A DNA stretch of 64,000 bases from NCBI RefSeq assembly GCF_037392515.1, contig NC_090291.1:43889001-43953000 (forward strand). The letters are read 5' to 3'. Position numbers and translations under genes: made by a program. Shown here piece after piece: positions 6,551-50,555 of this stretch. The stretch is from Haliotis asinina (taxonomy: Eukaryota; Mollusca; Gastropoda; Lepetellida; Haliotidae). The notes beneath the pieces are model-generated. The model ran no database searches and was not told the origin of the DNA. It was given only the letters and a program-made list of their open reading frames with translations. The stretch's first letter is position 1; each line of letters begins with the position of its first letter.

Positions 6551-6838
6551 ATGTCTACACTCGCTTTGCTGAAGCTGCAACTGGCGTTAGTCGAGACTAA
6601 ACGCCGTCTCAAAAGAGCATGTGACCAAATACATCTCCTGGACGCCAGATTGGACGACATTCAGCATCGCCGCCACATCGCAAGCAGCAAACCAGCCTTC
6701 CGCTATAACCTTCTGCTCCAACTGAGAGTGACGGAGGGTATACGGAACACGTACTATGAGTACGCATGGAAGAAGGTTGAAGAAATAGCTTACCTCAAGT
6801 ATGAAATACGAAAGTCTGAACAAAGGGTTTCTTCGTAA
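6551..6838 (+). CDS. Small helical protein, family member 1 (histone-type mRNA 3' end)
   Basis: Intronless reading frame of 95 residues; no known family recognised. It shares a core with four other genes in this window: an invariant Gln (residue 26) followed by LLDARLDDIQHR, a short loop, an aromatic residue, then a second helix with G-[IV]-R and Y-x-x-Y (Gly 63). Compared with its relatives the loop is two residues shorter. The predicted fold is a helical hairpin or coiled coil, basic overall, without signal peptide or membrane segment. I chose the first ATG of the conserved frame; the open frame continues upstream without another ATG. A SINE tail fragment ends about 55 bp before the start codon and no good TATA box is visible, so the promoter may be altered. 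A histone-type hairpin follows 38 nt after the stop. Function unknown; a chromatin, sperm or egg role is only a guess. Confidence 0.72.
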   Translation: MSTLALLKLQLALVETKRRLKRACDQIHLLDARLDDIQHRRHIASSKPAFRYNLLLQLRVTEGIRNTYYEYAWKKVEEIAYLKYEIRKSEQRVSS

Positions 6839-6875
6839 ACCGGAAAAAGAAAGTTAAATCACGCTTAATTTCAAA

Positions 6876-6891
6876 GGCCCTTATCAGGGCC
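6876..6891 (+). terminator. Histone-type 3' stem-loop of member 1
   Basis: GGCCCT TATC AGGGCC: a perfect six-pair stem and four-base loop, preceded by CAAA and followed by CAAC, as in animal replication-dependent histone mRNAs. A purine-rich CAAGAAAGAAAC starts 9 nt downstream, the right place and composition for the histone downstream element bound by U7 snRNP. The loop UAUC is slightly off the usual UUUC. No AATAAA lies between the stop codon and the hairpin. Confidence 0.8.
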
Positions 6892-7211
6892 AACAAATCC
6901 AAGAAAGAAACTTTGAAAACAATGACATTATTAGTCTGGGTTCTTTTTATAATTTTAGATGTGTGTAAAAAAATTATCAAATTTAATTCCCCAGAAAAAT
7001 GTAACAATGATGAGAAAAAAGTGTTCAATTGGGTGGTATTTATTTTCATGTTTGTGACTGATACATGTTATTCATACCTTATCGTAATACGGCCACATGA
7101 ATCCTCTTTCCGATTATGTTCCGCTAAATCGCTACAATATACAGCTACTAAATATTTGTTTACATAGTTCATTGTTTATGTTATTATTACTCGGGCGCTA
7201 TATTCACAACT

Positions 7212-7214
<3 letters not shown>

Positions 7215-7275
<61 letters not shown>

Positions 7276-7280
7276 GACAC

Positions 7281-7323
<43 letters not shown>

Positions 7324-7441
7324 TACATACATACATACATACATACATACATACATACATACATACATACATACATACATACATACATACATACATACAT
7401 ACATACATACATACATACATACATGTGTGTGTGTGTGTGTG
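7215..7441. repeat. Compound microsatellite (CA)n(CAGA)n(CATA)n(GT)n
   Basis: Four blocks in order: CA to about 7270, ACAG to about 7320, ACAT to 7424, then GT to 7441. Confidence 0.97.
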
Positions 7442-9300
7442 TATTCCCAAAATACGCATAAATCATGTTACGTGTCATACAAGGAGATGGGGAGATGGAC
7501 TCACCCCTTGTTATTTTCTAAAGTACCAATCTTCGCATATTTTCTACCTAAACTGTCTGCTGTGAAAGGCAAGGTAGACATTAACGGACCACTGACAATT
7601 AGTGAGGAGACCGGGTGCTGTTAACAACTGATTCTAATATGTTGTAGCTTATTTGCATAAATGCCAACAGTACTAGTAATAGTCAGCTTTTATGGTTTGC
7701 ACATATTGGTTTCCGCTGAAAGGAACCGGGTTAGTAAACAAGTTTAAGCATACGTAAATACCCCTCTGTGACACAATGGAAGGAAGAGAAAACATGCCAA
7801 GATGAATGTACAATGTGAGTGGTATAAAATGTTGCAGAAACGAGAAATAAAACTAATCATTGTTAAACAGTATGTGTCATACAGACAATTATTTCAGGTA
7901 AAATCTGGCAGATAAATTTATAAACGAGTGCCCTAGTTAAGAGGTCTTTGTTTGCTATTGAAGAACAGTTCTGGTTTCCAAACAAAATTCATTTTAGGTT
8001 TAACCCATCAGTATAAAAACACATCAGTTGACGTATATTGTCGTAAAGAGTACATGAAAAGAAATAATGAGCAGTGTCTTCATAGGTATGGCCACACGAG
8101 GAAGATGATGATGGAGATATACATCATATGTCATATTATCATTTTGTACGCCTTAAGGTCTATACATTCAAGTCGGATTTAAGTAAAAATTACAGTAGAT
8201 GTTAGAATCGTTTGAAATTACAATTTATATCTCGATAGGGTCGGTGATTCTCAATGTTCGGCCAATAAGGAATTCCATATTTAAAACGGCATATGAAAGA
8301 AAGGATCACGCATAATTTACAGATTTACAGCTTATATAGACTAAGGGTCAGTCTCCGAATATACTCGTACATAATGTTGATAGTAACAAACAGACCCATT
8401 TTAATTTAAAAGTGGCCCCACGGAGACCAGACATTCTGAACCTGATGAAATCTAGACTTGTTTAATGCTTGCTTTAGTACTGCAGAGAAGGCTTGGCATT
8501 AGGCACAACAATGTGGTTCAGGGACTGTAAGATAGACTTACAGTGCGAAGGATTGAATCATCGCGCAGATTAGAACCAACGACATTTGAAACTCAAGGTG
8601 GAACAAGTTTACTAACATAACTTGGTGTTGTGTTATTAACAATTTTGTAAAACATGGTCATTTTATGAAAGTTTTACAACCGGTGAAAATCAGTTTCTTT
8701 GTATATTTTATGATGGCTGGCACCACGAACAGCACCACGCACAGTTCTCAGAGCGCCAAGATTGAGCTTTTCAAGTATATCTGTTTGTGGTTTGGGTACA
8801 ATTATCCCATACATGACTGCAATGATAAAAAAAGATAATATGAATTGTTTGTACCTAGTTTATAATGTTCGAACGATACTTGAGACTTCCTAAGACACCA
8901 TTGGTGCAACTGGTTTTAGTGCAGTCGTTAATGTCTTTGGTACATCAGCAATCATGCTGAATCGTAAGACTTAAATGTTTACGACTTTGAACGAAATTAG
9001 TGATGTTACCATTCATTGTTAATTAGAGTTGGTTGCTATTTACGAGTAAAGAGTATTCTGTCTTGTTGGGATTAAAAGATGCTTGCCATTTTTCTACCCA
9101 TTCCGTACATTTCTGTAAATCATTGTTTATATGGAGTTCATGCCCAGCCACAATGTCTGTTCACGGCGCTACGTACATTACTATCCCCGGTCATAGGACA
9201 CTATCGTACTTCCCGATGCTTTTTTCAACTCCATGGGGACTATACAGTCATGCTACCTGTTAGGTTCAATGAACTGCACGTTCATATTGCCAGCACATCC
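7442..9300. other. No gene seen
   Basis: AT-rich intergenic DNA between members 1 and 2; short frames only. Confidence 0.4.
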
Positions 9301-9309
9301 TCATGGTGG

Positions 9310-9455
9310 TTGAACTGAGGCATTGTGGATCTAAGTATCTTGTCCAAGGATACTACGCAAATATGCCACCTGGGGACCCGAACTTTGGTGCCTCGACCGG
9401 GGACCGAACCCTGGCCTTCAGCGTGATAGACAGGGGCCTTGTCACTGCATTATTG
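9310..9455 (-). repeat. tRNA-derived SINE-like fragment, other family
   Basis: The minus strand shows GGGTTCGGTCCCC (B-box type) after CTGTCTATCACGC, resembling a tRNA-Asp anticodon arm, followed by TCGGGTCCCCAGGTGGCAT. No intact cloverleaf is seen. Confidence 0.4.
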
Positions 9456-9849
9456 TGCTCCATCGCAAAGATATATAGAACTCACTTCTACTCATTTGTC
9501 AACAACGATAACTCCTGTATAGTAATTGAGGAGCGCCATAACATGCCGATATGATACGAATTAGGGATCATCGTGTCATAATGCAACAGTTATCAGTTTA
9601 ACAGGAAACGATTAGTGACTCGGCTAGTAAGCCTGGCCAATTTTTCGGTTTATGAAAGCAAAAACGCAAACATATTTGCATTTTGAGACATTTCATAATG
9701 CATAAACGCAGAAAAAAATGAAGTGCAATTCATTTATCAACTGATATTATTCTACAGGCTGAGGATAACGTTTAAAATGTTGAAGGTGTTGCTATAAAAC
9801 TGCCATCTCCATCAATTCAAAACTGTTCCCTAGCAACAACCATATCTAA

Positions 9850-10110
9850 CACGTTTGGTTAATTAACCAACAAGCAGTCTCTCGAACACAAAAGCGGCGT
9901 GGGCCTGATGGTATCAGGCAGAAATCCATCAGGCTTTAACCAGCCTAGCTGGAACTAATTAACACTACTCTCTTGAACGTAACAATACACGCTTGATCAA
10001 CTTAAACTGACGTTAATTAATTATGAAAACAGACTTTACGTTCTGTGATCTTAATTATCCAGTTAAAGATGGTTGTCTGGTAGTTGTAGACAATTAACGT
10101 CAATTAAGGT
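9850..10110. promoter_or_regulatory. TTAATTA-rich block upstream of member 2
   Basis: At least four TAATTA or TTAATTA sites and a TCAATTAAGG within 260 bp. The segment around AACTGACGTTAATTAATTA has a relative at 12087-12140. Confidence 0.35.
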
Positions 10111-10219
10111 AACAATGCGAGCGAGACGACACATTCTGTCACACGCTGACATAGAGTGTTTTATAGTCCTTGTTAAAGGGAAAGTTAAACATGGCATTAA
10201 CAGCCTTTCACGTGATACA

Positions 10220-10227
10220 TATAAATA
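10220..10227 (+). promoter_or_regulatory. TATA box of member 2
   Basis: TATAAATA lies 40 bp before the start codon. A possible initiator (CAGTCACCAC) begins about 18 bp downstream, giving a leader of only about 10-20 nt, similar to the compact promoters of histone genes. Confidence 0.6.
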
Positions 10228-10259
10228 CTTCAGCGCAGTCACCACATCCCATTCCCACC

Positions 10260-10598
10260 ATGGCAATCGTCTACTCCATTAACCGCGATATGCTGGAAAA
10301 CGACCTCTACGACTGTGAAGAAAGGTTCCTGAAAGCCCGCGACCAGGTTGTGCTTCTGTCACAAAGAATGAAAGAGATCAACCACCGTTACGAAAAAGCC
10401 AAATCTAACGGTCAGAGAGCGTTCGTCCTTCACCTTAGACTACGGAAGGTCATCCTGGAGGGGATGATGGGTGTGTACATGGAGTATCTAGACAGAAAGG
10501 CCAAGGACATGGTGCGCCTACGGTTCAGTCTGGTGGAGATAGAAGAAGCACAACGGAATGCCGAAGGACGCCATGAAGAGACGGAGATGGAGTTGTAA
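10260..10598 (+). CDS. Small helical protein, family member 2 (histone-type mRNA 3' end)
   Basis: Intronless frame of 112 residues starting at CACCATGG, a strong initiation context, with a TATA box 40 bp upstream. The family core is present: Gln 29, then LLSQRMKEINHRYEKA, a loop containing NGQRAF, and the second helix RLRKVILEGMMGVYMEYL (Gly 68). It has the longest C-terminal tail of the family, about 25 charged residues rich in Glu and Arg, making it more acidic than its relatives. The whole protein looks alpha-helical, with no signal peptide or membrane segment. The upstream 250 bp are rich in TTAATTA motifs. A histone-type hairpin follows 25 nt after the stop. Function unknown. Confidence 0.75.
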   Translation: MAIVYSINRDMLENDLYDCEERFLKARDQVVLLSQRMKEINHRYEKAKSNGQRAFVLHLRLRKVILEGMMGVYMEYLDRKAKDMVRLRFSLVEIEEAQRNAEGRHEETEMEL

Positions 10599-10622
10599 AC
10601 TGGAATCATCCAGGCTTAAAAA

Positions 10623-10638
10623 GGCTCTTTTAAGAGCC
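10623..10638 (+). terminator. Histone-type 3' stem-loop of member 2
   Basis: GGCTCT TTTA AGAGCC, a perfect six-pair stem with a UUUA loop, preceded by AAAAA and followed by AGC. TGAAAGATGA, a good histone downstream element candidate, begins 13 nt downstream. Confidence 0.87.
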
Positions 10639-10699
10639 AGCAATTCATCCTGAAAGATGACTTGAAAAAATGATTATGCGTGTGGTTGCCACACCCAAA

Positions 10700-11870
10700 A
10701 ATATTGTATAACTGTATGAAGGTGGCCTAGACTGGTCTAGGTCTGTACCTAATCAACTCTGGCCAAGATAATCTAGTGACTGATATGAACATCGGTGTAG
10801 GTAGAAAACCCTATTTCCCAGCATTCAGTCAGGCGGAGAACAACCGAGGCAGGGATTACTGGGTAGAGTATAGAAGTCAACATGTGCAATTTCGGTAAAT
10901 TTTTATTGAAGAGTATCGTATGTTGAAATAGGTATTAGAGTGCTGGTTAGATTAAAAAGTCGAACTCAATTGTGGAAAATACTAAAACGTAAGAAAAATA
11001 GGAGGTACCTATGACAATGATTACTTTAAGGAGAAAAGTGGTAGTACCAATGACATCAGAGAACTAACCCATACAGTGGGTATAAATGTTGTACAATGTC
11101 AGTGGGAAGTACGATCATGGCCAATCAGTAGATACGTCACATATTTATACCAACATCAAGGGGTGGTAGATACCTTTGTATGGATGGTTTTATGTAGCAA
11201 GTGGGCAAGGGGAAACGGGACGACTCGATATAATGGAAGTGCGTGGAGAAGAACTGTAAGTCCGCAGTTTCTACCCCGAATGGCATCATCACCCTGACAT
11301 CAACACCCTGACATCAACACCCTGACACTCACATCCATGTGGGAGATGAACCAATCGTTCAAGTGAGACGAAACTCACGCATTTACAACTATACAGAAGG
11401 CTTGCTGGAACGGTCGCCTGAAAAAAATCATCGAGAGGTTGCGTTTTCTGAAAGAGGGGAGAAACTGAATGAAGATTCATCTTGTTCAGTAAGGCGCCAG
11501 GCAAAGACAACCATCAATAAGGAGGAAAACATGCCGACATAGACCGCATGTTGAGGCTCTGCAACACCGACGACAGAGGGATGATGTCATCGACGTCTTC
11601 TATTACGACACAGGATGCTGTAACATCTCTTTGGTGAAGGCCATTCCGAAACTCGGACCAATAAAGTAAACATTCCCCAATGTTTCACACAACAAATGAC
11701 TGTATATTTTTAATTAACTTTAATTCTTCCCATATTGATTTTTATGGTTTTAAATATTTATTTAAGTATAAAAAATGTATTATATTCATCAAGCATTGTG
11801 ATTTATGCATTTAATAATATTTATTTTCGTGTGTGAGTGGATGCGCGAGTGTGGGTTTGTTGGCAAACCT
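10700..11870. other. No firm gene; weak short frame with poly(A) signal
   Basis: A 67-residue frame at 11339-11542 lacks an ATG at its start and matches nothing I know. AATAAA at 11660 follows. Three CCCTGACATCAACA repeats lie at 11290-11330. I do not call a gene. Confidence 0.3.
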
Positions 11871-11878
11871 TTGTGTGG

Positions 11879-12060
11879 TGAGTGAGTTTAGTTTATTCCA
11901 GCTATATCGCGGCGGTCTGAAAAAAATCGGGTCCTGGCCAGACAATCCAGTGATCAGCAACATGAGCATCGATCTGCGCGATTGGGAATCGATGCCATGT
12001 GACAACCAAGTCAACGAGTCTGATCATCCGATCCCGTTAGTCGCTTCTTACGACAAGCGA
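11879..12060 (-). repeat. SINE A, internally shortened
   Basis: GTGAGTGAGTTTAGTTTATT, then CAGACAATCCAGTGATCAGC to CGCTTCTTACGACAAGCGA. About 20 bp of the tail region and the head end are missing. Confidence 0.8.
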
Positions 12061-12069
12061 CGTTTTTGT

Positions 12070-12315
12070 AAACAAGAGGTTTTAATTAATAACAGTAGCA
12101 ATACAATGCTCGATCACTTGTAAACTGGCGTTAATTATGTACACATAGGTCTTAATCCTTCAAAATAAGCCTATCTGGTTCCTGGGACCTGGCGTCCATT
12201 ACCCGCTTATAATTAATCACAAGCGGAGAGTATCTTGGCGCTAATTAAGTTCAATGTACCCCACTCGTTAATGAAATACAGCATACAGAACTGATGCTAA
12301 TTAAAGATATATGGG
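12070..12315. promoter_or_regulatory. TTAATTA-rich block, second copy
   Basis: GCAATACAATGCTCGATCAC and AACTGGCGTTAATTATG resemble 9975-10025; further TAATTA-type sites follow. No gene of the small family follows it. Confidence 0.3.
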
Positions 12316-12319
12316 AGTT

Positions 12320-13300
12320 TCAATCAACTCAGTGGTATCAATGTATTTTAATATCACCTGATACGCGCAACATAACGACAAAAGAACCACTGGACTATTT
12401 TCAAACAGGAGGCCAGCCCTAGTTGTTTCTATATAGTGAGCATAAGAAATGCCGATTTATTGCTTCTTGTGTAAAAAGGCTATGGCCATTGTATATATGC
12501 ATGTACGTTTTACCATTTTAGTCTCCTGTTACTGCGCATGAGATGGCCTGAGAGTTTTGTGTAGTCAGTCAATACCTTCTCGTGGAACTGGGTGGCTTAA
12601 AAGACATAGTTCCAACTTGCGTGAAAACGTATATTGCAAAACAAACGCAACTCCAGTTTTTGTCAAGTTTTTCAAGAGAGGGCATTAACAAAAAACGCTG
12701 ATTTTTATGAGATTTCACTTTTTTAAACTCTCGTTTCTTCTGCTGTTCATCATATACAGAAACAAATATTACAGTATATTATCTATTGACCTGATTTGAA
12801 TTGCGGAGGATTGTGTTATACACACAGAGGAGTTCGCATACAATATAACTGGGTACACTACACGCTCATTTTTCAATATATATATCAGTAATACGTTGTG
12901 GGCAACACCGACGTATCATGTAGGTAAACGCACGTAAAAGATTGAACTCAACACCATTGACACGCGTTGTGTGAAAGAAGTCATTTAAACTGATATTACT
13001 TCACGAGAGAGAAAAATATAGTGCCAGGACTGCGAGGTAGTCCACAGGGGCGTGTCACGCTTAGAAATGGCTTTAGAAAGGCAGATGTGTGTAGACCCTA
13101 CTTGTTGTGAATGACAAAGATCTTTTTCCCCCATTCTTCCTATTAAGTTCGCATAACACATTTTTTAAAAAATAATTTAAAATATTTCAGTATCACGTCT
13201 GTGGTATGCAAAACACGAACACGCTCACAATATACCATGTATACTCAACTACAGTAGTAGCTTCTATCACGTGAGTTAAATGAGTTCTTCATGTTTACAA
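12320..13300. other. No gene seen
   Basis: AT-rich with short frames only. Confidence 0.4.
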
Positions 13301-13323
13301 AGTATTCTTTCGGGATATTTCTT

Positions 13324-13339
13324 GGCTCTGAAAAGAGCC
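13324..13339 (-). terminator. Canonical histone-type 3' stem-loop of member 3
   Basis: On the minus strand GGCTCT TTTC AGAGCC, preceded by AAAAA and followed by AAGAAA; this matches the animal histone mRNA hairpin exactly in stem and loop. A purine stretch CCGAAAGAATA (13303-13313) follows 10 nt downstream. The hairpin lies 92 nt after the stop codon. Confidence 0.9.
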
Positions 13340-13430
13340 TTTTTAAGTGAAGTTGGAAACACTCGGCTCATTCCGCCTCAGTCCAACGGAGGCAAACCGT
13401 CCGAAAGTCCGAATGAGCGAACCTCTCTTT

Positions 13431-13712
13431 CTACCAGTCTGGCGATCGGAGCGCGCTGTTCAACCTCGCCATCTCGGTGCCCTTTTCCAGTGCGTATTCC
13501 CGATAGGCGTTCCGGACTCCCTGGATGGTCGCTATGCGGATCCGGTACAGCATTCGGAACTGTCTCTGGTTGTTTCGGACAGCACGGTCGTACCGAACTC
13601 GCACGTCCTCCAGCCGAGCATCCAGTACAGCGATTTGAGTGCAGGCGGACTTAAACTTTCTCTCAGCTTCGTACAGGCTGCTGTAGAGCTCGAATATTTC
13701 ATCGGTATCCAT
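13431..13712 (-). CDS. Small helical protein, family member 3 (histone-type mRNA 3' end)
   Basis: Intronless frame of 93 residues. I chose the ATG at 13712 (context ACCATGG) over one at 13727, because a TATA-like ATATATATAT at 13736-13745 is too close to the upstream ATG. The family core is clear: Gln 26, then LDARLEDVRVRYDRAV, loop with NNQRQF, second helix IRIATIQGVRNAYREYALEK (Gly 65). The N-terminal 25 residues are acidic then basic; the C-terminus is short (SPDW). Predicted to be a soluble helical hairpin or coiled coil. It lies tail-to-tail with member 2. Function unknown. Confidence 0.75.
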   Translation of the reverse strand: MDTDEIFELYSSLYEAERKFKSACTQIAVLDARLEDVRVRYDRAVRNNQRQFRMLYRIRIATIQGVRNAYREYALEKGTEMARLNSALRSPDW

Positions 13713-13735
13713 GGTAATTGAGAACATGCTTGCGG

Positions 13736-13745
13736 ATATATATAT
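13736..13745 (-). promoter_or_regulatory. TATA-like element of member 3
   Basis: An alternating AT run 24-33 bp before the chosen start codon, the only TATA-like motif near it. Confidence 0.45.
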
Positions 13746-14159
13746 ATCACAGATGTTCAAAGACTGTTGGATATATTTCACCTGATGGATCGTTTGAGAA
13801 TCTGGATTGTTTCACTATGACCGAAGAGGACATATGATGAAATCCAATACTTGTTCGAGACCTTTATACACCCTTGTGACACTGAGGAGGAGGAAGAGGT
13901 GTCACGGGTGTCACATGCCGCACGTGACACCGGGAAAGCCCCGCTTGTACCCGTGACGCGGAGAGCCTCGTATGACACTGCCAGCTTAATGACCTGTCGT
14001 CCACCACCGGTCACTTTAACTCAGAGCAGGGATGATCACCAGCGGGTCGAGAGGTGTGAAGTTACAGATATGCTTCACAAACCACACATTCCTATTTAAA
14101 TTTCCCTCAATACTCAGTTTATATGTTTTTATTTTTGGGGGCGCTTTCATACTTTCTAT

Positions 14160-14285
14160 TTTCTCTCAGGTGATATCATCAGTTGCTTCATGACGGTGTT
14201 AGAACCTACACCGAAACGTCGCTCTCATAGCAATAAAGGAGTTGTTCATCCATGTATTGTCATCCTTCCTTACTGCCCCAACTTC
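14160..14285 (+). mobile_element. Penelope-like or foldback element end with hammerhead-like motif
   Basis: CGGTGT (14194-14199) pairs with ACACCG (14208-14213) and is followed by AAACGTC. The same layout (stem, GAAAC, GTC) occurs in hammerhead motifs of Penelope-like elements. The upstream core reads TTCATGA instead of the canonical CTGATGA, so ribozyme activity is doubtful. The tail CAACTTCAAAATGTCTCTC leads directly into the 80-bp array. Confidence 0.45.
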
Positions 14286-15495
14286 AAAATGTCTCTCAAA
14301 GAAGTCATGTATACCTTAGTTGTGCATGCGACATTAAAAAATGCAAATAACTAACAACTTCACAAATACCTCAACTCAAAGAAGTTATGTATACCTTAGT
14401 TGTGCATGCGACATTAAAAAATGCAAATAACTAACAACTTCACAAATACCTCAACTCTAAGAAGTTGTATATACCTTAGTTGTGCATGCGACATTAAAAA
14501 AGCAAATAACTAACAACTTCACAAATACCTCAACTCTAAGAAGTTGTATATACCTTAGTTGTGCATGCGACGTTAAAAAAGCAAATAACTAACAACTTCA
14601 CAAATACCTCAACTCTAAGAAGTTATGTATACCTTAGTTGTACATGTGACATTTAAAAAAGCAAATAACTAACAACTTCACAAATACCTCAACTCAAAGA
14701 AGTTGTATATACCTTAGTTGTGCATGCGACGTTAAAAAAAGCAAATAACTCACAACTTCACAAATACCTCAACTCTAAGAAGTTGTATATACCTTAGTTG
14801 TGCATGTGACATTAAAAAATGCAAATAACTAACAACTTCACAAATACCTCAACTCAAAGAAAATATATATACCTTAGTTGTACATGTGACATTTAAAAAA
14901 GCAAATAACTAACAACTTCACAAATACCTCAACTCAAAGAAAATATATATACCTTAGTTGTGCATGCGACGTTAAAAAAGCAAATAACTAACAACTTCAC
15001 AAATACCTCAACTCAAAGAAAATATATATACCTTAGTTGTGCATGCGACATTTAAAAAAGCAAATAACTAACAACTTCACAAATACCTCAACTCAAAGAA
15101 AATATATATACCTTAGTTGTGCATGCGACATTTAAAAAAGCAAATAACTAACAACTTCACAAATACCTCAACTCAAAGAAGTTGTATATACCTTAGTTGT
15201 GCATGCGACGTTAAAAAAAAGCAAATAACTAACAACTTCACAAATACCTCAACTCAAAGAAGTTGTATATACCTTAGTTGTGCATGCGACGTTAAAAAAA
15301 AGCAAATAACTAACAACTTCACAAATACCTCAACTCAAAGAAGTTGTATATACCTTAGTTGTGCATGCGACGTTAAAAAAGCAAATAACTAACAACTTCA
15401 CAAATAGCTCAACTCAAAGAAGTTATATATACCTTAGTTGTGCATGCGACGTCAAGAAAAGCAAATAACTAACAACTTCACAAATACGTCAACTC
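14279..15495 (+). repeat. 80-bp tandem (satellite-like) array, about 15 units
   Basis: The unit has the form CAACTCAAAGAAGTT..., CCTTAGTTGTGCATGCGAC, TTAAAAAAGCAAATAACTAA, CAACTTCACAAATACCT. Most units differ by a few bases; variants AAATATATAT and GTTGTATAT alternate at one site. The first unit is the tail of the adjacent element, so the array seems to have grown from it. A 91-residue open frame across it is repeat-made. Confidence 0.95.
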
Positions 15496-15862
15496 TCCAC
15501 TTTCACTAACACTCACCTATCACTACAAACACTCCTTAGCCCACTAATTAACACTCAGACCCCCGCATTCTTATCAAATTAAGCTGGTCTTTTAGATCGT
15601 TAATAACCCCATATAACCTACTGGTGCTTTCATAAATGATATCCCAAAACAAATCATAAAAGCAAGCAAAATAAATATCAACCAACCATTCCACAGGCCA
15701 TGCCCCCTACAACTTCTGGCAGTTTCAAATTCAAAATTCATACAAATTTAGTTATGCAACCCTACCACCCTTTCAGATTGTCATTGATTTAGGTCAAATC
15801 ACCTCAAACAATCGCTAAATAATGGCCTGACGGGTCCGTGTGGGGGACATCATGGCCATCAG

Positions 15863-15958
15863 ACCCGTGAAGATCTGGATTAGAATAGTTTCCTTCAGTA
15901 ACCCATGCTTGTCTTAAGAGGCGACTGACGGGATCGGGCGGTCAGGTTCGCTGACTTC
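15863..15958 (+). repeat. SINE A 5' fragment
   Basis: ACCCGTGAAGATCTGG to GGGCGGTCAGGTTCGCTGAC. Confidence 0.65.
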
Positions 15959-16790
15959 AATTCAATTCAATTTATTTCTCAAAACACCACCAGCGGTGGT
16001 ACATGAGAATACATACATATATACACTTCACGTGCTCCGTGCGGCCGTACCCCATGTGGAATTTTAAATGAATTCGCTGAAAAATATATGAATGTCCAAA
16101 AACGTCAGACTGAAATATTCCCAGAGATGTGAAATATATGGCCAGTGTTAATGGTTACAGTTGATTAGTTATACCGATATAAAAGTGTTGATTTCAAACG
16201 CCTAGCGATTCATAATTACAGTTCCTGAAACTATTGGATGCGCACGTACAATCATCACACAAGCAGTACTTACACCAATGGATTGCGATACACGCAAGGC
16301 CTGTAGGAAACCGAAACGTAACGGTGAAAAAGAAGCAAGACACGACCCATTTCAGTATTGTGTAGGGAATATGCATTGAAGAAGACTACTTTTGTAGGCG
16401 ACACATGTTAGTACATTGTACGACATTAAGGATTCAGAGGTGATATTTCAAAATAGAAACTTTGTGCTATTCGGTGGAGTACCCATTATGCTAGTCTTAT
16501 TCCTAATGCCGACAGCCAATCTGCATGCACGCATTCACGCACGCACAGGCTGTGCTTCGGGCTAAGCACTTCAACAATACAGGTCTAAATGCACCATCGA
16601 GGAAATTACAAACATGATTAAATCTCAGCGCTAGGAATCAGCGTCAGGTTTTAACAGTTAGAAGTGAAAAGGTTTCTTTATTGCTCCCCGACTACAATCA
16701 TTTTCTTTTTTTTTTCTCCTGGCTGCCGGCCTTGTTGCGTGCGGGGGTTTCTATTAGAACCACAAAAAACGTGGAATAAAGTTACTCAGG

Positions 16791-16896
16791 CTGTTGACCA
16801 CCGGTTTGTCCGGTCCAGACTCGATTATGCACAGACCGCCGCTGTATAGATGGATCATTGCTGAGTGCGGTATAAAACTAAACTCATTCACTCATT
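16791..16896 (+). repeat. SINE A 3' fragment
   Basis: GTCCGGTCCAGACTCGATTA to TAAAACTAAACTCATTCACT. Confidence 0.7.
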
Positions 16897-17241
16897 TCAG
16901 AAGTAACAAGACATGTCAACATCGACAGTAGTAAGTGAACTCAACATTGCATGGACGTCTGGGTGGCATGACATTTGTTGTAAGCAATTTGCAACAGGAA
17001 GGACTTGTATGAGAACACCCATTTGCTTATTGGAGGAGGTATGGCGCCTTTATACAGTAGTCCAAACAGGACAGACAAGCCTGTAAGATCCTTTTGAATA
17101 ATCATTCACCCCGTTTTGAAAGAATATAATACGTGTCAACAAGAATATAATACATGTCTGAACGAATATCATAAGTCTTTAGGAACAATAGCGCACAGTC
17201 GTGACATCCATCCATATTTATGGGTCAAGGTCACGTGGTAC

Positions 17242-17529
17242 AGTGAGTGAGTGAGTGAGTGAGTTTCCCCAGATTGTATTACATTGCTCCTCTAAAGGGA
17301 AAAGTTGGTTGGTTTGTCCATTAACGCCGCACTCGACAATTTTCCATGGCAGGTCTATGGCGGCAGTCTGTAAATAATCGTATCTGGAGCAGATAATCCA
17401 GATAATCCATCATGAGCAGCTGGTATATCGTGATAATTGTGGACCAAATCAGCGAGTTTGACCACCCGACCTGTCAGTCAACAAGCATGGGATGCTGAAG
17501 ACGGATTATAGTCCGCATCTTCACGGGGC
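17242..17529 (-). repeat. SINE A, diverged
   Basis: (GTGA)n start, TATGGCGGCAGTCTGTAAAT, GACCACCCGACC and CATCTTCACGGGG; about 40 bp of other sequence sits near the tail. Confidence 0.7.
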
Positions 17530-17572
17530 AGATGGTTACATATTAGCATAGCCATGAATCGGCATCAGTTAC

Positions 17573-17611
17573 GTGAATGAATGAATGAATGAATGAATGA
17601 ATGAATGAATT
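17573..17611. repeat. (GAAT)n microsatellite
   Basis: About nine GAAT units between SINE A and the 3' flank of member 4. Confidence 0.85.
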
Positions 17612-17712
17612 CAGTGTTACATGAATCTAACATGATAACACTTCTTTCAAAAGGTGTTCTTTAATGGAATACGGTTACATGTTTTCAAAGCATTCTCCTG
17701 TGGAAATTTGTT

Positions 17713-17728
17713 GGCCCTGAAAAGGGCC
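17713..17728 (-). terminator. Histone-type 3' stem-loop of member 4
   Basis: On the minus strand GGCCCT TTTC AGGGCC followed by AACAAAT. Stem and loop match the histone consensus. The downstream element is weaker (CCACAGGAGAATGC). Confidence 0.8.
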
Positions 17729-17928
17729 GTATGACCCACAGCTACATATGACGAATAGCTGACGTCCCTCTCGGTTGGTGTAATAGGTTGCAAGGGTGCA
17801 CATTCATGGGTCTCAGGTGGAATATAATTGGAAAAGATGTCACCGATGAATATGTTTGACGTTTCATTTCGAAGTGGCGGTGCCGTTCGACACACATGTA
17901 AACGTTGCAAGCATCAATCGTCTGTAGT

Positions 17929-18195
17929 TTAGCTGGCCATCTCCATCATGTCCCAGGCTATCTTCTCAGCATACTTGAAATACATGTCCCGGACACCCTT
18001 AATGACGGCCAGACGCAGCCGGATGTGGTATCGATAACTTCGACGGTTCACTGCCAGTGCTCTGTCGTATCGGACCTGCGACTCGTCCATACGTTCATTC
18101 AACAGATGGACCTGATTGACAGCCCACTGGAACCTCTTCCGTATCCTCCTCAACTTGGTCTGGCGACGTGTTCTAGACGCAATACTCATTGTCAT
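17929..18195 (-). CDS. Small helical protein, family member 4 (histone-type mRNA 3' end)
   Basis: Intronless frame of 88 residues, strongly basic, with an Arg-rich N-terminus (RTRRQTKLRRIRKR). The family core follows: Gln 28, then HLLNERMDESQVRYDRAL, loop NRRSYRYH, second helix RLRLAVIKGVRDMYFKYA (Gly 67). Two ATGs lie two codons apart (MTM); the first is used here. TTAAAA at 18250-18255 is a TATA candidate 55 bp upstream. The gene is one arm of an inverted duplication with member 5; the coding sequences differ at only three positions before the C-termini part ways. The histone-type hairpin lies 200 nt after the stop, the longest such distance in the family. The basic N-terminus would fit DNA or RNA binding, but this is inference. 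Confidence 0.75.
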   Translation of the reverse strand: MTMSIASRTRRQTKLRRIRKRFQWAVNQVHLLNERMDESQVRYDRALAVNRRSYRYHIRLRLAVIKGVRDMYFKYAEKIAWDMMEMAS

Positions 18196-18249
18196 TTCTG
18201 ATGAGTGGAATGGAAGCTGATGATATGGTTCTGAACTGTTGCCGACCGC

Positions 18250-18255
18250 TTTTAA
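18250..18255 (-). promoter_or_regulatory. TATA-like box of member 4
   Basis: TTAAAA on the minus strand, identical in position and context to that of member 5. From here to the start codon the two copies are identical. Confidence 0.4.
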
Positions 18256-18740
18256 GGGGATTTCCGTGTTGTTTGTGTAACGTCTTGATGGAAGCCAGTA
18301 GATGATGCATTGAGTAGCTGGTGCCACCCTCGGCCACAGTGACAAGTGATGTTTGTTTAATGGCGAGTTAGTGCGTGTTGTCACGCGTCAATGTCGACAC
18401 TGGCTTCCTTACTTGTTGAAACTGAAGACGTTCGCGAACCTCAAATGAACAGCATTGAATTTGTTGACATACACATCATCCACTTCCCCCCGGAAATATA
18501 CATTTTTGGGGGGTATGGTGATTTATTGCTTATTCCCACTTATTAATCATTTATTTCCCCCACCTACCCCGTCGGAGACAACTTAAAGCTTCAAACAACC
18601 GAAATGATTTTATTAATGTCTCTCCAGACAATATTTATGCGACTTGTATTTCATTGTATTATTACATAAGTACATGATATCACAAATGACATTAAACATA
18701 CAACATGCATGAATAAGAACATCTTTGGAGCCAAATCGCA

Positions 18741-20185
18741 TCTAACTGTACTACCTTATTATAGTGTCATTCTGGATATAATTAAGTATTTCTCCTGGAC
18801 AAACGGTGACACTATAATCAGGATGTACTGTATAGTGACTGAACATGACTGGTGTGTAGTATATTTTTAAATAATGTTATTACGAATGCAGACGAGCTGT
18901 ACCTGACAGTGTTATTATTGTCTAGTATGGATGGTAGTTTGTCAAACTGGGCCTGTCTTGTAAAACATTGCTTTATCTCGTGTGAATCTGCAAAATGATG
19001 GCGACACTGAACCAATCACACAAACAATCACTCAACAAATTAGAAGTGTTCATATAAAAAAGCAATTCTTCAGCATTTAATGAATCTCACAAACATTTCT
19101 TGTCTGTTAAATATTGCATCTCAAGAACGCAGAAATATCGGAAGTATGTTTTAAAAAACGGCACAGTTCAGCTTAAAAGGTGTTTTGAAAATAACATGGA
19201 ATTTTGTTGCGCAGGGGCGTAGCTACCAATATTAAAGAAGCCCCGGGCTTACACATGATTTGTGTTGTGTAAGTTGGGCAAGCCCACAATACTATCTGGA
19301 TAGATTTATTGCCAATGATTCGCGATGTGGTCATTGATATGAGGATGCACATCACTACCCTATTTATACACCCACATTATGCAGACATTCTTCATGTGAA
19401 GCTACTTCTATGTAAATGGTCACAACTTCAACACAGTATTATTTGGCAATAAGAACTTACCTAATTATGTGAAGACAAAAATAACCCAATTTGTTCATAC
19501 GTTTATATCACTAAGCAAACGCTTTACGTTAAACTATCACATTCGAAACTACTTGTGGCATTCCGGCAAGCTGGATGGCGTCTTCTTGTAGGTCACGGAA
19601 AGAGACGAGTAGTTACGAATGAAACTACCAGTGTGTGACACTAATTGTTTTCTTCATGCATGCATGTATAATAAATTCTGATGTAAACATTCTATTGTAA
19701 TATGTATTCGTTTGGGCAGAGACATTGATGTACGGGAAACGCTGTTTGTCAGTCCCACTGTACGTGCCTTAAGTACAAGAATAAATATTGTTGAAACTAA
19801 AATGGAACAATCACACAAATTAAATAAGCTGAATGGGCCTGACCGTGCCTCTATATCTCTAATCGAATGTGGATCAAATCATGAGGAAAAGTGACAGTAT
19901 TCCGACTCATCGATTAGGATAAAACATCCATGAAATGTGAAAAGTTTACAAACGTTTCATAGCCCAATTTATGCATGCCTTCGAGGACACCCGTCATTAG
20001 TTTTCAAATGCCCCAACTATGATGCTATAAGAAATTATTTATTTTATTTCAAACATGGATGTATCATAAATGACGCACTGCGTGGTTACCTATAATCACA
20101 CTGATCTGTAAATCTGATATTATCAAATCAGCACACAACTCTATTACCATTTAAAGAATATTTAATCAATCATGTGTTTTCATGA
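18741..20185. other. Spacer between inverted arms
   Basis: AT-rich sequence without a convincing gene or recognised repeat; only short random open frames. Confidence 0.5.
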
Positions 20186-20262
20186 GAGTATTTTGGCTGC
20201 ATGGGTGTTCTTATTCATGTACGTTGCATGTTCAATGTTATTTGTGATATCATGTACTTATG

Positions 20263-20525
20263 TGAGTGAGTTTAGGTTTACGTCGCACTCAGCAATATTC
20301 CAGCTATATGGCGGCGGTCTCTAATTAATCGAGTCTGGACCAGACAATCCAGTGATCAGCAGCATGAACATCGGTCTGCGCAGTTGGGAACCGATGACAT
20401 GTGCCAACCAAGTCAGCGAGTCTGACCACCCGATCGCGTTAGTGGCCTCTTACGACAAGCATAGTCTCCTTTTATGGCAAGCATGGGTTGCTGAAGGTTT
20501 ATTCTACCCCGGACCTTCATGGGTT
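20263..20525 (-). repeat. SINE A insertion with target-site duplication
   Basis: Near full-length SINE A. It is flanked by CATGTACTTATG (20251-20262) and CATGTACGTATG (20526-20537), a 12-bp target-site duplication with one mismatch. The empty site is preserved as CATAAGTACATG at 18665-18676 in the opposite arm, so insertion came after the inverted duplication. Confidence 0.88.
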
Positions 20526-20903
20526 CATGTACGTATGTAATAATACAATGAAATACAAGTCGCATAAATATTGACTGGATTGGCATTAATATAATCTTTT
20601 CGTTTGTTTGATGATTACGTTTCTCAACAATACTGCAAAAATAAATATGTTTAATCCAATGATGCATGTCAACATGGGGATGATCTGTATGTCAACAAAT
20701 TCAATGCTGTTCATTTGAGGTTCGCGAACGTCTTCAGTTTCAACAAGTAAGGAAGCCAGTGTCGACACTGACGCGAGACAACACGCACTAACTCGCCATT
20801 AAACAAACATCACTTGTCACTGTGGCCAAGAGTGACACCAGCTACTTAATGCATCATCTACTGGCTTCCATCAAGACGTTACACAAACAACACGGAAATC
20901 CCC

Positions 20904-20909
20904 TTAAAA
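20904..20909 (+). promoter_or_regulatory. TATA-like box of member 5
   Basis: TTAAAA 55 bp before the start codon, mirrored in member 4. Confidence 0.4.
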
Positions 20910-20963
20910 GCGGTCGGCAACAGTTCAGAACCATATCATCAGCTTCCATTCCACTCATCAGAA

Positions 20964-21254
20964 ATGACAATGAGTATTGCGTCTAGAACACGTCGTCAGA
21001 CCAAGTTGAGGAGGATACGGAAGAGGTTCCAGTGGGCTGTCAATCAGGTCCATCTGTTGAATGAACGTATGGACGAGTCGCAGGTCCGATACGACAGAGC
21101 ACTGGCAGTGAACCGTCGAAGTTATCGATACCACATCCGGCTGCGTCTGGCCGTCATTGAGGGTGTCCGGGACATGTATTTCAAGTATGCTGAGAAGATA
21201 GCCTGGGACATGATGGACATGGCCAGATACACCAGGCGACGTACGGACGATTGA
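20964..21254 (+). CDS. Small helical protein, family member 5 (decayed histone-type 3' end)
   Basis: Intronless frame of 96 residues, the inverted-repeat partner of member 4. Up to residue 87 the two proteins differ only by Glu/Lys and Asp/Glu exchanges. Where member 4 stops after EMAS, this copy runs on with a basic tail YTRRRTDD before its own stop. The flank between TATA-like box and start codon is identical to member 4, so the promoter is probably kept. The position homologous to the histone-type hairpin (21366-21381) holds a mismatched stem, so the transcript probably ends another way or the copy is on the way to loss. The frame itself is open. Function unknown. Confidence 0.65.
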   Translation: MTMSIASRTRRQTKLRRIRKRFQWAVNQVHLLNERMDESQVRYDRALAVNRRSYRYHIRLRLAVIEGVRDMYFKYAEKIAWDMMDMARYTRRRTDD

Positions 21255-21365
21255 AGCCCACCACGTCTACCTGTGCATCAAACGAAGGTGCAACCGCGTC
21301 ACATTCCCATGACTCGGATGGTTGAAAGTGTGGCCACGTTTAGTTCCGTTTACGGCGATTCTAAC

Positions 21366-21381
21366 GGCCGTTTTCAGCGTC
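21366..21381 (+). other. Decayed histone-type stem-loop after member 5
   Basis: GGCCG TTTTC AGCGTC aligns with the hairpin of member 4 (loop TTTC kept; AACCA and a later TTTTGAAAACGTG also align), but the six-pair stem is broken at two positions. Confidence 0.6.
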
Positions 21382-46400: not shown

Positions 46401-49400
46401 CTGACCAATCTGAACACAGCTTAACAAATCGCAAAAGTGGACATTCGCACACACCTTTTGAACTTTTTACCTCGAAAAGGTTTGTACCCGAACAATTCTG
46501 AATACTATTTAGCGTAGGCTCGCTTCCAAGTTATGCGCACGACATATGTACAACCATGACAACAGTAAGTAAACAGTTGCTGGAAATAGTGTTTTTAGCA
46601 ATATACAAGGATGTTATCTTGTGGAAATATTAGTTAATGGTAACCATGTCAACAGAAACCCCCCCAGGATATATACTGCAGGTCAAATAACTGTGTTGCT
46701 TGCAGAGTTTTGTTTGTGGAGAGATCTGTGTCCGTGACCTGAATATTTTGAAAGTCCCTCCGATCCCTAAATAGTAGCCGTTGTCTGATTGGTTAAATCG
46801 ACTTAACCGTCTTGCGTTAGATTGGACGGTTGTCGCTCAAAGGTTTACCTGATGCAACCTTTTACTAGGTTTTGTTGACTCATTGGTGGAGTTTACTTAG
46901 ACTGATACTGAAACATTCTCAGTTTGTCTATGTTAACATATTGTTATAACAACTCTTTGAAAATACTGATAGCTCATCTTAGGATTAGGTTTGAAAATGC
47001 ATTCAAGTGACATATTCTCAGTGGAAATGAATGGATTTTATGAACTGATTTATTTCATTTCATGGTCAACAAGGAAATTGAACTGAGTTTGTGGTACATA
47101 AAACAGCGCAATTCTTTCAAGTTCCTACCATATCTCCTTGTTCTAGTGCAGCAATGCCTGTTTCTCTGATTACAGAATAGGTTTGCTTTAACATAGATAG
47201 TGAAACTGAAAGGGCATTAGTGGAAGATTGTGTGTTTGTTTGCATCATCAATAGATTTTGTTTCTTTCTACATTCTGCTTCACTGCTTTGTGAGATTTAA
47301 AACAGTTAAATTCTTCGAGCCATATTTTCTAGTGCTGCAGTCAGATTACAGAAATAGATCGGCTTGCAATTTTGTTTCACTCACCTAGTGAAACTGAAAC
47401 ACCCCTGATGGAAGGATCATGTTTGTTTATATGATCAATAGGTATTGTTTCACTGTATTGCCTAAATCACCCCTCATGTGTACAATGTATGAAGCCCATT
47501 TCTGGTGTCCCCCACTATGACATTGTTGGAATATTGCTATAAGCAATGTAAAACCTCTATCACTCACTCACCCACTCACTCACTCACACACCCTTCAGTG
47601 CCTGCATCAGACTATAGCTCCAGTATTCAAGTGCATGTTGAAGGAGCTGTAATGTAATAAGAAGGAGCTCGATGGCATCAGATGATCAGTGATTTGGTTT
47701 TATGCTGCTTGTTATATCAACCACTAGTTTGTTTGGCCCATCTTCTGCCTGAACTGGAATTATTATAGATCATCTAAATGCCAATGAATGAAAATAATGA
47801 CATCACTAGGGGGTTAAAGTTGTGTTTTTCGCGTCTAAACCCTCTAATCCGATTTTCTGTATTGTTCATATGGGTTCTGTGCATAGAAGACATTCTTGAT
47901 GCCCAGATGAGATATTACTGAAGAATAGACAAGTGTAGTGGCCATCACTGTTAGAATTTAAAGAAATATGGAGGAAGAATGGACAAATATAAATTGCCAT
48001 TTAGTCCAGCCATGAGCATTATACAAGTTATATCTTAGGAGCAGAGCAATACTTAGTACATTATTTTGCATTTGCTACTAATTTTACTTATACTGAAGTT
48101 GGATGTAAAAGTTTTTATGCTGCCACAAGGACACATCACAAAATTCCAAAATCTCAAAATTTGTGGATGTTGAGACTTAATCGCTATCAAAGATCTTTTC
48201 CATTTCTCGTTTAGGTGTCCATCAAAGAAAGAAATTTAAAACCAATAAATATTAAGGTTCCAAATAGATGTATAAACGTGCATGTTTGTGAGAGAGAGAA
48301 CAATGCGTTTTCCTTATGGCAGATACAAATTATCAAGATTTAAAATCTGTTGTGTCATGTTTCAAATTTGCTTTAATGAGTAAAAATATACTGAAATGAA
48401 ATATGGGTCTATTTTGTCAGGCTCTTGTACTGTATTGTGTGCATGGCATCGTTATGGACCTGTGGTTTTTAATGTAGTAAACAATTTATCTGATTTTTTC
48501 ACAGTGATACAAACTGCCCTGTCCTGTGTTGTGTCCCAGTAATTAGTCATGTGTTAAATATTCTGTTGTCTTCATAAGTTTATAGTCATTGAACATCAAA
48601 GCCAACAACCAACCATAATTGGTTGGAGTGTCTTAAGAAGTTTCTTCTCTTTGCAGGTCATCTCCCACTTGATGAGCTTCCTCAGTGTGTCGGACCGCAA
48701 GGAAGCTGCACTGGTCAACACATCATGGTATGAGGCCTCTATGGACCCAGCTCTACAGAGGGACATGGTAGTCAACTTCTCCGACACTAATGTAACCAAC
48801 CTGCGCACAAGGAGAAAACTGACCCACCTGGTGCTGAACCATATCGACAACTCTACCTCCTCCGTAACTGAGATGGTAAAGTTCTTTGAGTACATGAGCG
48901 AAAGTCTGACAAACCTGTCTCTCAAGGGCTCCAACATTACAGAAGGAACATTTGTCAAGCTCCTATCACAATGCAAGAATCTGACCGTTCTCGACCTGAC
49001 AAGCTGTAATTCTTTGTTTATGTCTGGCAACCTTCTTGATCGCAAGTTGGATGTTCAAACCCTCAAAGAGTCCCTGCAGCATGTCAAAAAGTTGACCTTG
49101 GCTTCAGTAAGATTTCTTTCTGATGTAAGCTTTAATCGAATTTTATCAGTGTGTCCAAATGTTGAGGAACTATCTCTTGCTCATGCTCAGATAACATTCA
49201 ACAGTGCAACCTACTACCCCCAGGGAAGCAAGGTTGGGACCAACTCGGCTGTTCTCACCTTCCATAACATCCTGGATTTTGTTGATAGACAGGGGCCAAA
49301 ACTGAAGTCACTGAACCTAAGCCGGACCACCATTGCCAACTGCCACCTCTCCGAGTTAGCCAGGTGTCAGAACATTGCTTTAGAGGAGCTTATCCTTGTT

Positions 49401-50555
49401 GGCTGTAGGGAGATCACCGACTCTGGCCTTGGTCAGTTTTGTCGCCAACAGAAGAGCCTCCAGAAGCTGGACATCAGCAGCTGCACTGACATCACCGACA
49501 GTGGCATTGCTGCTGTGGCAACCAACCTGACCCAGCTGCGATCATTTAAGGCCAACAAATGCAGGCAGATGACTGACAATTCTGTTAAACTGTTCAAGTA
49601 TATGTCTCTTCTGGAAAGCCTGGACCTCTCCGAGTGTTACGAGCTGTTCAGCCAGGGGACGATTCAGGGGTTGTGTAGTGGGATACAGAGTAAGCTTACA
49701 CACCTCAACCTTAGCTGCTGCACTGCTCTAACAGACTACTTTGTTGTGGAACTTACAAAAACTGTGCCCAGTTTGGTTCACCTTGACCTTGGCTCTCTGT
49801 TCAATATCACTGACATCAGTGTCCACGCGATCTCCAAGAGGCTGAAGCATCTGAGATACTTGCGCCTTGCATGGTGTAAGGAATTATCAGACAAGGGCCT
49901 ATTGGGGCTTGAGGAACTGGATGACTCCAGGTATGAGACTCATGTTCTTGATGGTCATAATGGACAGTGTCGCTGCACTCGCAGACATTCAGAACAAGGC
50001 TCCAACATATTCAAGAAACCATCTGGTAGTGGCGGGAAGGACAAGAAGATGTCTATTGGAGATCTTGAGGCCATGGTGAAGAATGGGGGAGAGCTCTATA
50101 GCCTCAGCAACTTGTCAGGTCTCCGAACCTTGGACCTGACATCTTGCTCCAAGTTCACAGACTTTGGTCTAAAAGAAGCCATAAAATTCAAGGAACTTAA
50201 GAGTTTATCCCTTGGGATGGTACACGGAATGACCAATGAGAGCCTTGTTGCCATAGCCCGTAACAATCCAAGCCTGGAGGATGTCCGCGTGAACCAGTGT
50301 ATCAAAATCACAGATGCAGCTGTAGAAGCTTTGACAAGTAAGTGTCCACGATTGTCCCACCTGGACGTGTCTAGCTGTGACAGATTGACCAATCACACCC
50401 TATACTATGTCCAGACCAACTGTCAACGTCTGCGTCATCTTGATGTCTCCTTCTGTAGTGGATTGACCCCAGAGGCTGTAGACAAGCTAGAGGGCACCAT
50501 GAAAGGCCTGCATACAGTACACAAGAGGCTGGTCGGAACCACCGCCACACACTAG
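40490..50555 (+). CDS. FBXL9: F-box/leucine-rich-repeat protein, FBXL9 (LRRC29)-like
   Basis: Two coding exons: 40490-40513 (MASKLPTE, donor GAG/GTGAGT) and 48657-50555 (acceptor TTGCAG), joined in phase 0 to give 640 residues. The F-box starts at residue 5 (LPTEVISHLMSFL) and runs to about 45 (ALVNTSWYEAS); in this family it binds Skp1 of an SCF ubiquitin ligase. From about residue 63 there are many cysteine-containing leucine-rich repeats (for example LQKLDISSCTDITDSGIAA), expected to form the substrate-binding arc. A less ordered insert with Cys/Arg and Lys/Gly/Ser runs lies at about 429-487. The last 160 residues, including LRTLDLTSCSKFTDFGL and the closing RLVG, resemble my memory of human LRRC29/FBXL9; another FBXL subfamily is possible. 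The intron is 8.1 kb. The 5' UTR limit is unknown. Confidence 0.9.
41531..41701 (+). mobile_element. Foldback element with 32-bp arms and hammerhead-like centre
   Basis: Arms 41531-41562 and 41670-41701 are inverted repeats matching at 30 of 32 positions. An inner pair (TGCAATGGGTGC... and ...GCACCTATTGCA) extends the hairpin, and the centre carries AGCGGTGTTAGTATCTACGC then TGAAAC, as at 14.2 kb. The tail ACAACTTCTAAAATGTCTTT follows at 41709. It lies in the intron of the F-box gene. Confidence 0.75.
44591..44757 (+). repeat. SINE B
   Basis: Head with GCCTAGTGGTTAAAGCG and GGTTTGATTACC, body CCCGTTTCTGGTGTACCC, tail to ACTCACTTGCTCAC. Confidence 0.7.
45171..45335 (+). repeat. SINE B
   Basis: GGTGGTGAGGTAGCCCAGTG head, GGGATTCGATTTCC B box, tail CATAAAACTAAACTCACTA. 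A SINE A of opposite orientation starts 34 bp away. Confidence 0.75.
45369..45631 (-). repeat. SINE A, full length, F-box gene intron
   Basis: GAGTTTAGTTTTGCACCGTA to GGGACCTTCACGGG, little diverged. Confidence 0.88.
46311..46904. mobile_element. Non-autonomous TIR element, copy 2 (594 bp)
   Basis: Perfect 15-bp inverted ends, CAGTCTAAGTAAACT at left and AGTTTACTTAGACTG at right. It shares GTTACACTCCAC, AGTCTAACAAAAC and other blocks with copy 1. No transposase. It lies in the F-box gene intron. Confidence 0.75.
47477..47590 (+). repeat. SINE B, 3' part
   Basis: GAAGCCCATTTCTGGTGTCC through a (CACT)n tail. Confidence 0.65.
47936..48290 (+). repeat. Dispersed repeat, copy 1
   Basis: GTAGTGGCCATCACTGT, ATTGCCATTTAGTCCAGCCA, GTTATATCTTAGGAGCAGAG and a GAGAGAGA end match 55266-55650. 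Class unknown. Confidence 0.75.

Follow-up and report, generated by a model that had tools for sequence, protein, structure and literature searches.

Small non-histone protein genes with histone-type 3' ends form a multi-copy family in the genome of Haliotis asinina

Why should genes that do not encode histones end in the hairpin of histone messages? This question is raised by a 64,000-nt stretch of Haliotis asinina DNA (contig NC_090291.1, positions 43,889,001 to 43,953,000, or C12:43.889-43.953 Mb of the genome; hereafter the window), in which an original prediction, made from the letters alone, had placed five related small genes, named here P1 to P5, with histone-type hairpins behind four of them. 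Pre-mRNAs with such ends are processed by SLBP and the U7 small nuclear ribonucleoprotein (snRNP), which couples their stability to DNA replication. As judged from the genomic sequence, small uninterrupted multi-copy protein genes here carry the complete histone-type 3' end. Histone messages are given as the only ones of this kind in the parts of two published accounts that were consulted (PMC6303110, PMC2781718), and no description of this family, or of a non-histone gene with this end, was found among the open-licence papers listed.

The five genes (Table 1) were predicted to be related and uninterrupted, and this was borne out: all five open reading frames (ORFs) are intact and match one another by tblastn (for example, P1-P3 with E 2.4e-14 and P1-P2 with E 2.5e-7). 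On this comparison of sequences they are true paralogues. Their pairwise identities are 25-37%, except for P4 and P5, which are 97% identical and lie within a recent inverted duplication of 549 bp (98.2% identity). The frame of P2 is already open from an ATG at 10191; the start at 10260 is the most likely one because a TATAAA box sits 40 nt upstream of that ATG. When the window was searched with a profile of the five, nothing further belonged to the family (next best E 3.2).

The hairpins behind P1, P2, P3 and P4 all lie on the coding strand, have a perfect 6-bp stem and a 4-nt loop, and begin 37, 24, 91 and 200 nt past the stop codon, respectively. The pattern GGYYYT-N4-ARRRCC occurs at 4 places in the window, which makes 8 matches over the two strands; 100 dinucleotide-shuffled versions averaged 0.08 matches. 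The Rfam model Histone3 (RF00032) matched the four ends with E-values from 1.1e-6 to 2.4e-4. We also built a covariance model, R1, from nine aligned 3' ends of this genome's own histone genes, comprising H1 together with H2A, H2B, H3 and H4, the latter four from two types of repeat unit. R1 recovered the same four ends at E 8.6e-13, 1.4e-9, 1.4e-8 and 2.5e-7, with the downstream element included, and its next best match in the window had E 3.1 (11.8 bits). The perfect hairpins predicted after four genes were thus found by both models, and chance hairpins are ruled out by the shuffle counts and the R1 scores. The core histone hairpins themselves, read at the loci L070 and L071 (C27 and the start of C11), are identical in 8 of 8 cases across the two unit kinds (GGTCCTTTTCAGGACC).

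Downstream elements had been proposed for three of the hairpins; in fact all four have one. These elements are purine-rich and match those of this genome's histones in letters and spacing, and CACAAAAGAATGCT is common to the elements of H2A, H4, H3 (C11 unit) and the family arrays on C12 described below. When the stems of seven family types were compared, all 42 stem cells were paired; two of the six pairs vary, with both sides changed (G-C/A-U and U-A/C-G), and none of 500 shuffles reached the paired-cell count or the covariation score. The stem changes are paired, as had been proposed.

Table 1. Coordinates of the family genes, their 3' end features and the family places elsewhere in the genome (window positions unless a contig is given)
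Feature	Position	Strand	Details
P1 family member	6551..6838	+	95 aa, intact ORF
P1 hairpin GGCCCTTATCAGGGCC	6876..6891	+	Rfam Histone3 29.4 bits; R1 44.7 bits
P1 downstream element, core CCAAGAAAGAAACTTTGAAAAC	6892..6920	+	R1 and comparison with histone elements
TATA box of P2 (TATAAA)	10220..10225	+	40 nt upstream of ATG
P2 family member	10260..10598	+	112 aa counted from ATG at 10260
P2 hairpin GGCTCTTTTAAGAGCC	10623..10638	+	Rfam Histone3 35.7 bits (above cut-off); R1 36.8 bits
P2 downstream element, core CCTGAAAGATGACTTGAAAA	10639..10670	+	R1 and comparison with histone elements
P3 downstream element, core CCCGAAAGAATACTTTGTAAACATG	13290..13323	-	R1 and comparison with histone elements
P3 hairpin GGCTCTTTTCAGAGCC	13324..13339	-	Rfam Histone3 31.4 bits; R1 56.0 bits
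P3 family member	13431..13727	-	98 aa, intact ORF
P4 downstream element, core CACAGGAGAATGCTTTGAAAACATG	17678..17712	-	R1 and comparison with histone elements
P4 hairpin GGCCCTTTTCAGGGCC	17713..17728	-	Rfam Histone3 32.5 bits; R1 41.1 bits
P4 family member	17929..18195	-	88 aa, intact ORF
P5 family member	20964..21254	+	96 aa, inverted duplicate of P4
P5 decayed hairpin	21366..21381	+	sequence comparison; matched by neither Rfam nor R1
C12 array	C12:1.087-1.148 Mb		33 places; 1719-bp unit
C12 array and outliers	C12:1.436-1.770 Mb		152 places; 1709-bp unit
C11 places	C11:16.95-17.10 Mb		55 places; most spacings 2070 or 2390 bp
Remaining family places			one on C7, five in the window

The window genes proved to be a diverged outlier of a larger family, as far as sequence comparison tells, most of which lies beyond the stretch that the original prediction was based on. 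Five protein searches were run on the genome, whose 159 contigs total 1.143 Gb; each scored 150 of 368-482 first-look candidates, and in their union the places were retyped and those no more than 300 bp apart were merged. At least 246 family places were obtained, mostly in three tandem arrays, and 25 intact H3 matches were counted in the same assembly; since the arrays may be collapsed, both copy numbers are lower bounds. No internal stop was seen in 749 of the 750 listed rows, in which many places are repeated; the one row with a stop is P4, where the match extends beyond the gene's own stop. The array units that were read contain one family gene each; its ATG is preceded at 59-64 nt by a TATA box, and its stop is followed at 33-46 nt by a hairpin of which the outer stem pair is A-U. 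R1 found the 3' end in 24 of 25 copies of the loci L009-L015, in 21 of 23 distinct copies of another 25 loci, some of which coincide with places of the first set, and in a dispersed contig-11 member.

Comparison of the arrays revealed which parts have been kept. Between the two C12 arrays, 310 of 315 coding positions (98.4%), 46 of 48 in the 3' untranslated region ahead of the hairpin, and 47 of 48 in the hairpin and downstream element (97.9%) are identical; directly past the element the count drops to 86 of 103, and identity in the next ten 100-bp windows is 83-91%. The promoter (130 nt) shows 94.6% identity. The ratio of nonsynonymous to synonymous change (dN/dS) between these arrays is 0.12; between C12 and C11, dN is 0.22 with dS saturated, and the proteins are 74% identical. 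This conservation is the signature of selection that acts on both protein and 3' end. The core of the original prediction, a non-histone family with histone-type 3' ends, is accordingly upheld by R1, the common downstream element and the paired stem changes, and also by the drop in conservation past that element. In a tree of 12 members the window genes stand on long branches and one of nine inner branches is well supported; because of this poor support no branching order is claimed.

The single member on C7 differs from the others in its 3' end. It encodes 136 aa, of which about 97 match the best array copies at 57-59% identity, and has a TATA-like box. The 1976 nt past its stop yielded no hairpin and contain an AATAAA at +502. 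Its core is basic (isoelectric point, pI, 9.5); of the 51 tail residues that follow, 24 are Asp/Glu and none is Lys/Arg. A second copy of this type was absent from the 150 scored rows. Polyadenylated histone variants such as H3.3 and H2A.Z likewise are without the hairpin and have AATAAA. By analogy, and although the C7 paralogue is not a histone, its relation to the arrays is like that of replication-independent to replication-dependent histone genes.

We consider it probable that the family genes are non-histone clients of the SLBP/U7 pathway of 3' end formation. The stem-loop would be bound by SLBP and the downstream element by the U7 snRNP. The pre-mRNA would be cut a few nucleotides past the hairpin and left without poly(A); the message would therefore be made, translated and degraded alongside histone messages, in S phase or after storage in eggs and cleaving embryos. 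The shared features agree with this. Like replication-dependent histone genes, the family genes are uninterrupted, clustered and multi-copy, possess a stem-loop and an element of the same letters and spacing, and have a separate hairpin-less paralogue. A TATA-like box is present at -40 to -64 in P2, P4/P5 and the C12 and C11 copies, as it is in H2A, H2B and H4 of this genome. Unlike those genes, the family encodes a product that is not a histone, its arrays have the A-U outer stem pair, and its copy number is far above that of H3 here. For the machinery, a gene with the SLBP RNA-binding domain was identified on C15 as two adjacent matches.

Several observations weigh against this reading. All four window ends match RF00032, but only that of P2 passes the gathering cut-off (34 bits), the genes being non-histone, and the array hairpins that were read score 28.1-29.4 bits, also under it; the contig-11 copies in L011 were not reported by Histone3. 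The hairpin of P5 has been lost, with a decayed remnant kept. None was present in the array-end copy L002/L013, which is interrupted by other sequence, or in L078, where the hairpin region is absent. Two of five stem measures were reached by most shuffles (398/500 and 500/500), and the compared rows are related. The dN/dS of C11a-C11c is 1.65 (7 changes) and that of P4-P5 is 0.83 (4 changes); constraint is not seen in these small samples. No TATA match was found in the promoter of P1. Several core histone promoters contain, by eye, a motif near CTTCTCCGA-GTCCGCGCG, which was not seen in the family promoters, so that transcription of the family may be controlled differently. Finally, a U7 gene was not identified in the genome by RF00066 or by two pattern searches. 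RF00066 gave no match in any genome, controls included; the first pattern gave 2 matches against 8 in controls, neither with a convincing 3' hairpin, and the second gave 46 against 39, of which two places were read. One candidate place is U7-like at an Sm-like site but has no strong 3' hairpin, and for this reason the pairing energies computed with this candidate (z from -0.5 to -3.6, stronger for the histones and the C12 arrays than for most window genes) were not used as evidence.

What the protein does is a separate question. Searches of Pfam, NCBIfam, PDB and PHROGs gave weak matches only, none of which was accepted as a relative: Filament (PF00038) matched P3 at E 0.0017, its 18.5 bits falling short of the cut-off of 40, and none of the other eight of nine members; PHROG 3550 matched two of the nine at E 0.0062, and the best PDB match had E 0.032. 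No relatives were found in viral contigs or in one scan of prokaryote genomes. A highly diverged H2A, H2B, H3 or H4 is ruled out, as hhalign with this genome's copies gave a probability of at most 0.2%; by sequence, then, the proteins are not core histones. In helix 1, 8-10 of 10 heptad core positions are hydrophobic in six members (the register was chosen after inspection), and a short loop and a second helix follow; the protein is probably a helical hairpin of which the first helix forms a coiled coil. The pI is 9.2-11.3 for P1, P3, P4 and P5, 6.3 for P2 and 5.2-5.8 for the array members examined. The latter end in a short acidic Ser/Asp/Glu tail, which is long in the C7 paralogue.

These acidic tails suggest a nuclear chaperone-like role, and we offer tentatively that the product may be a factor, chaperone-like or associated with chromatin, whose required amount scales with newly made DNA. 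The basic core and acidic tail of the C7 paralogue are reminiscent of nucleoplasmin and HMGB, but no sequence relation was found. About equally likely is a cytoplasmic coiled-coil structural protein, required in bulk in cleaving embryos, whose gene ends merely suit rapid division; the heptads of helix 1, the weak Filament match of P3 and the hundreds of copies would fit it, while the lack of that match in the other members and, on general knowledge, the more chaperone-like tail and core of the C7 paralogue speak against it. A product of sperm or spermatocytes that packs or organises sperm chromatin is unlikely: four window members are basic, as sperm chromatin proteins would be expected to be, and the window members diverge fast, but the array members examined are acidic overall, and none is Arg/Lys-dense like protamine.

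It could also be that the hairpins are real yet for the most part the messages are cut and polyadenylated at later sites, with the hairpin an occasional or stage-specific end. This is improbable. An ATTAAA is indeed found by +400 in five of the eight copies examined (P2, P4, P5, C12a and C12b, 264-390 nt past the stop), but AATAAA was absent within 800 nt of the stop in all eight, between-array conservation falls off directly past the downstream element, and the hairpin-less C7 paralogue does have one, at +502.

The loci L016-L026, L084 and L085 on C1, C4, C5, C9, C11 and C13 hold a dispersed mobile element, one ORF of which is adenovirus-protease-like (PF00770, 17.0 bits against a cut-off of 21.3). 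This element has two histone-type 3' ends with downstream element, on opposite strands and each past a small Cys-rich ORF (22 matches in 11 of 11 full loci). The signal is therefore not confined to histones in this genome, and such ends on non-histone genes of a virus-like element would be notable in themselves. An origin of the family, or of its 3' ends, in this element, the arrays being selfish or satellite-like, is very improbable: the element has both ends in every full locus and holds 13 of the 75 Histone3 matches of the genome, but family relatives are lacking at E 1 in the 11 loci (E 0.55-0.64 in two further ones) and in viral contigs, the family genes keep their reading frames open, and between arrays no part is conserved better than the coding sequence.

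Other features were noted in passing. The C6 array accounts for 62 top-scoring Histone3 matches, and both loci read there encode H1; one of them, L027 (C6:42259596-42262641), lies in an H1 tandem array at C6:42.26-42.52 Mb with a unit of about 3.25 kb and also contains a 5S rRNA gene (109.7 bits). In the window, an 80-bp unit is repeated in 15 copies (95% matches) between P3 and P4 at 14295-15495; an open frame of 665 aa at 48558-50555 (+) contains leucine-rich repeats (LRR_4, E 6.4e-17); and long CA/CAGA/CATA simple repeats at 7220-7435 and 987-1059 gave spurious microRNA matches in Rfam.

Returning to the family as probable clients of the SLBP/U7 pathway, the histone-type end suggests a supply tied to DNA replication, and a copy number in the hundreds suggests that demand is high at its peak; from the sequence we infer a possible link to S phase, oogenesis or sperm. 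It is conceivable, if speculative, that the family is a dedicated non-histone chromatin-assembly factor made through SLBP and U7, with more copies than the histones here and a hairpin-less acidic-tailed variant serving outside S phase. Genes of this kind would be missed by poly(A)-selected transcriptomes. The rule that these ends belong to histones only would be broken by a non-histone family that is conserved, present in many copies and equipped with complete histone-type ends, and such a family would point to a protein whose amount must track DNA replication. If this reading is true, regular use of the histone mRNA pathway would become known for a non-histone protein family of animals for the first time.

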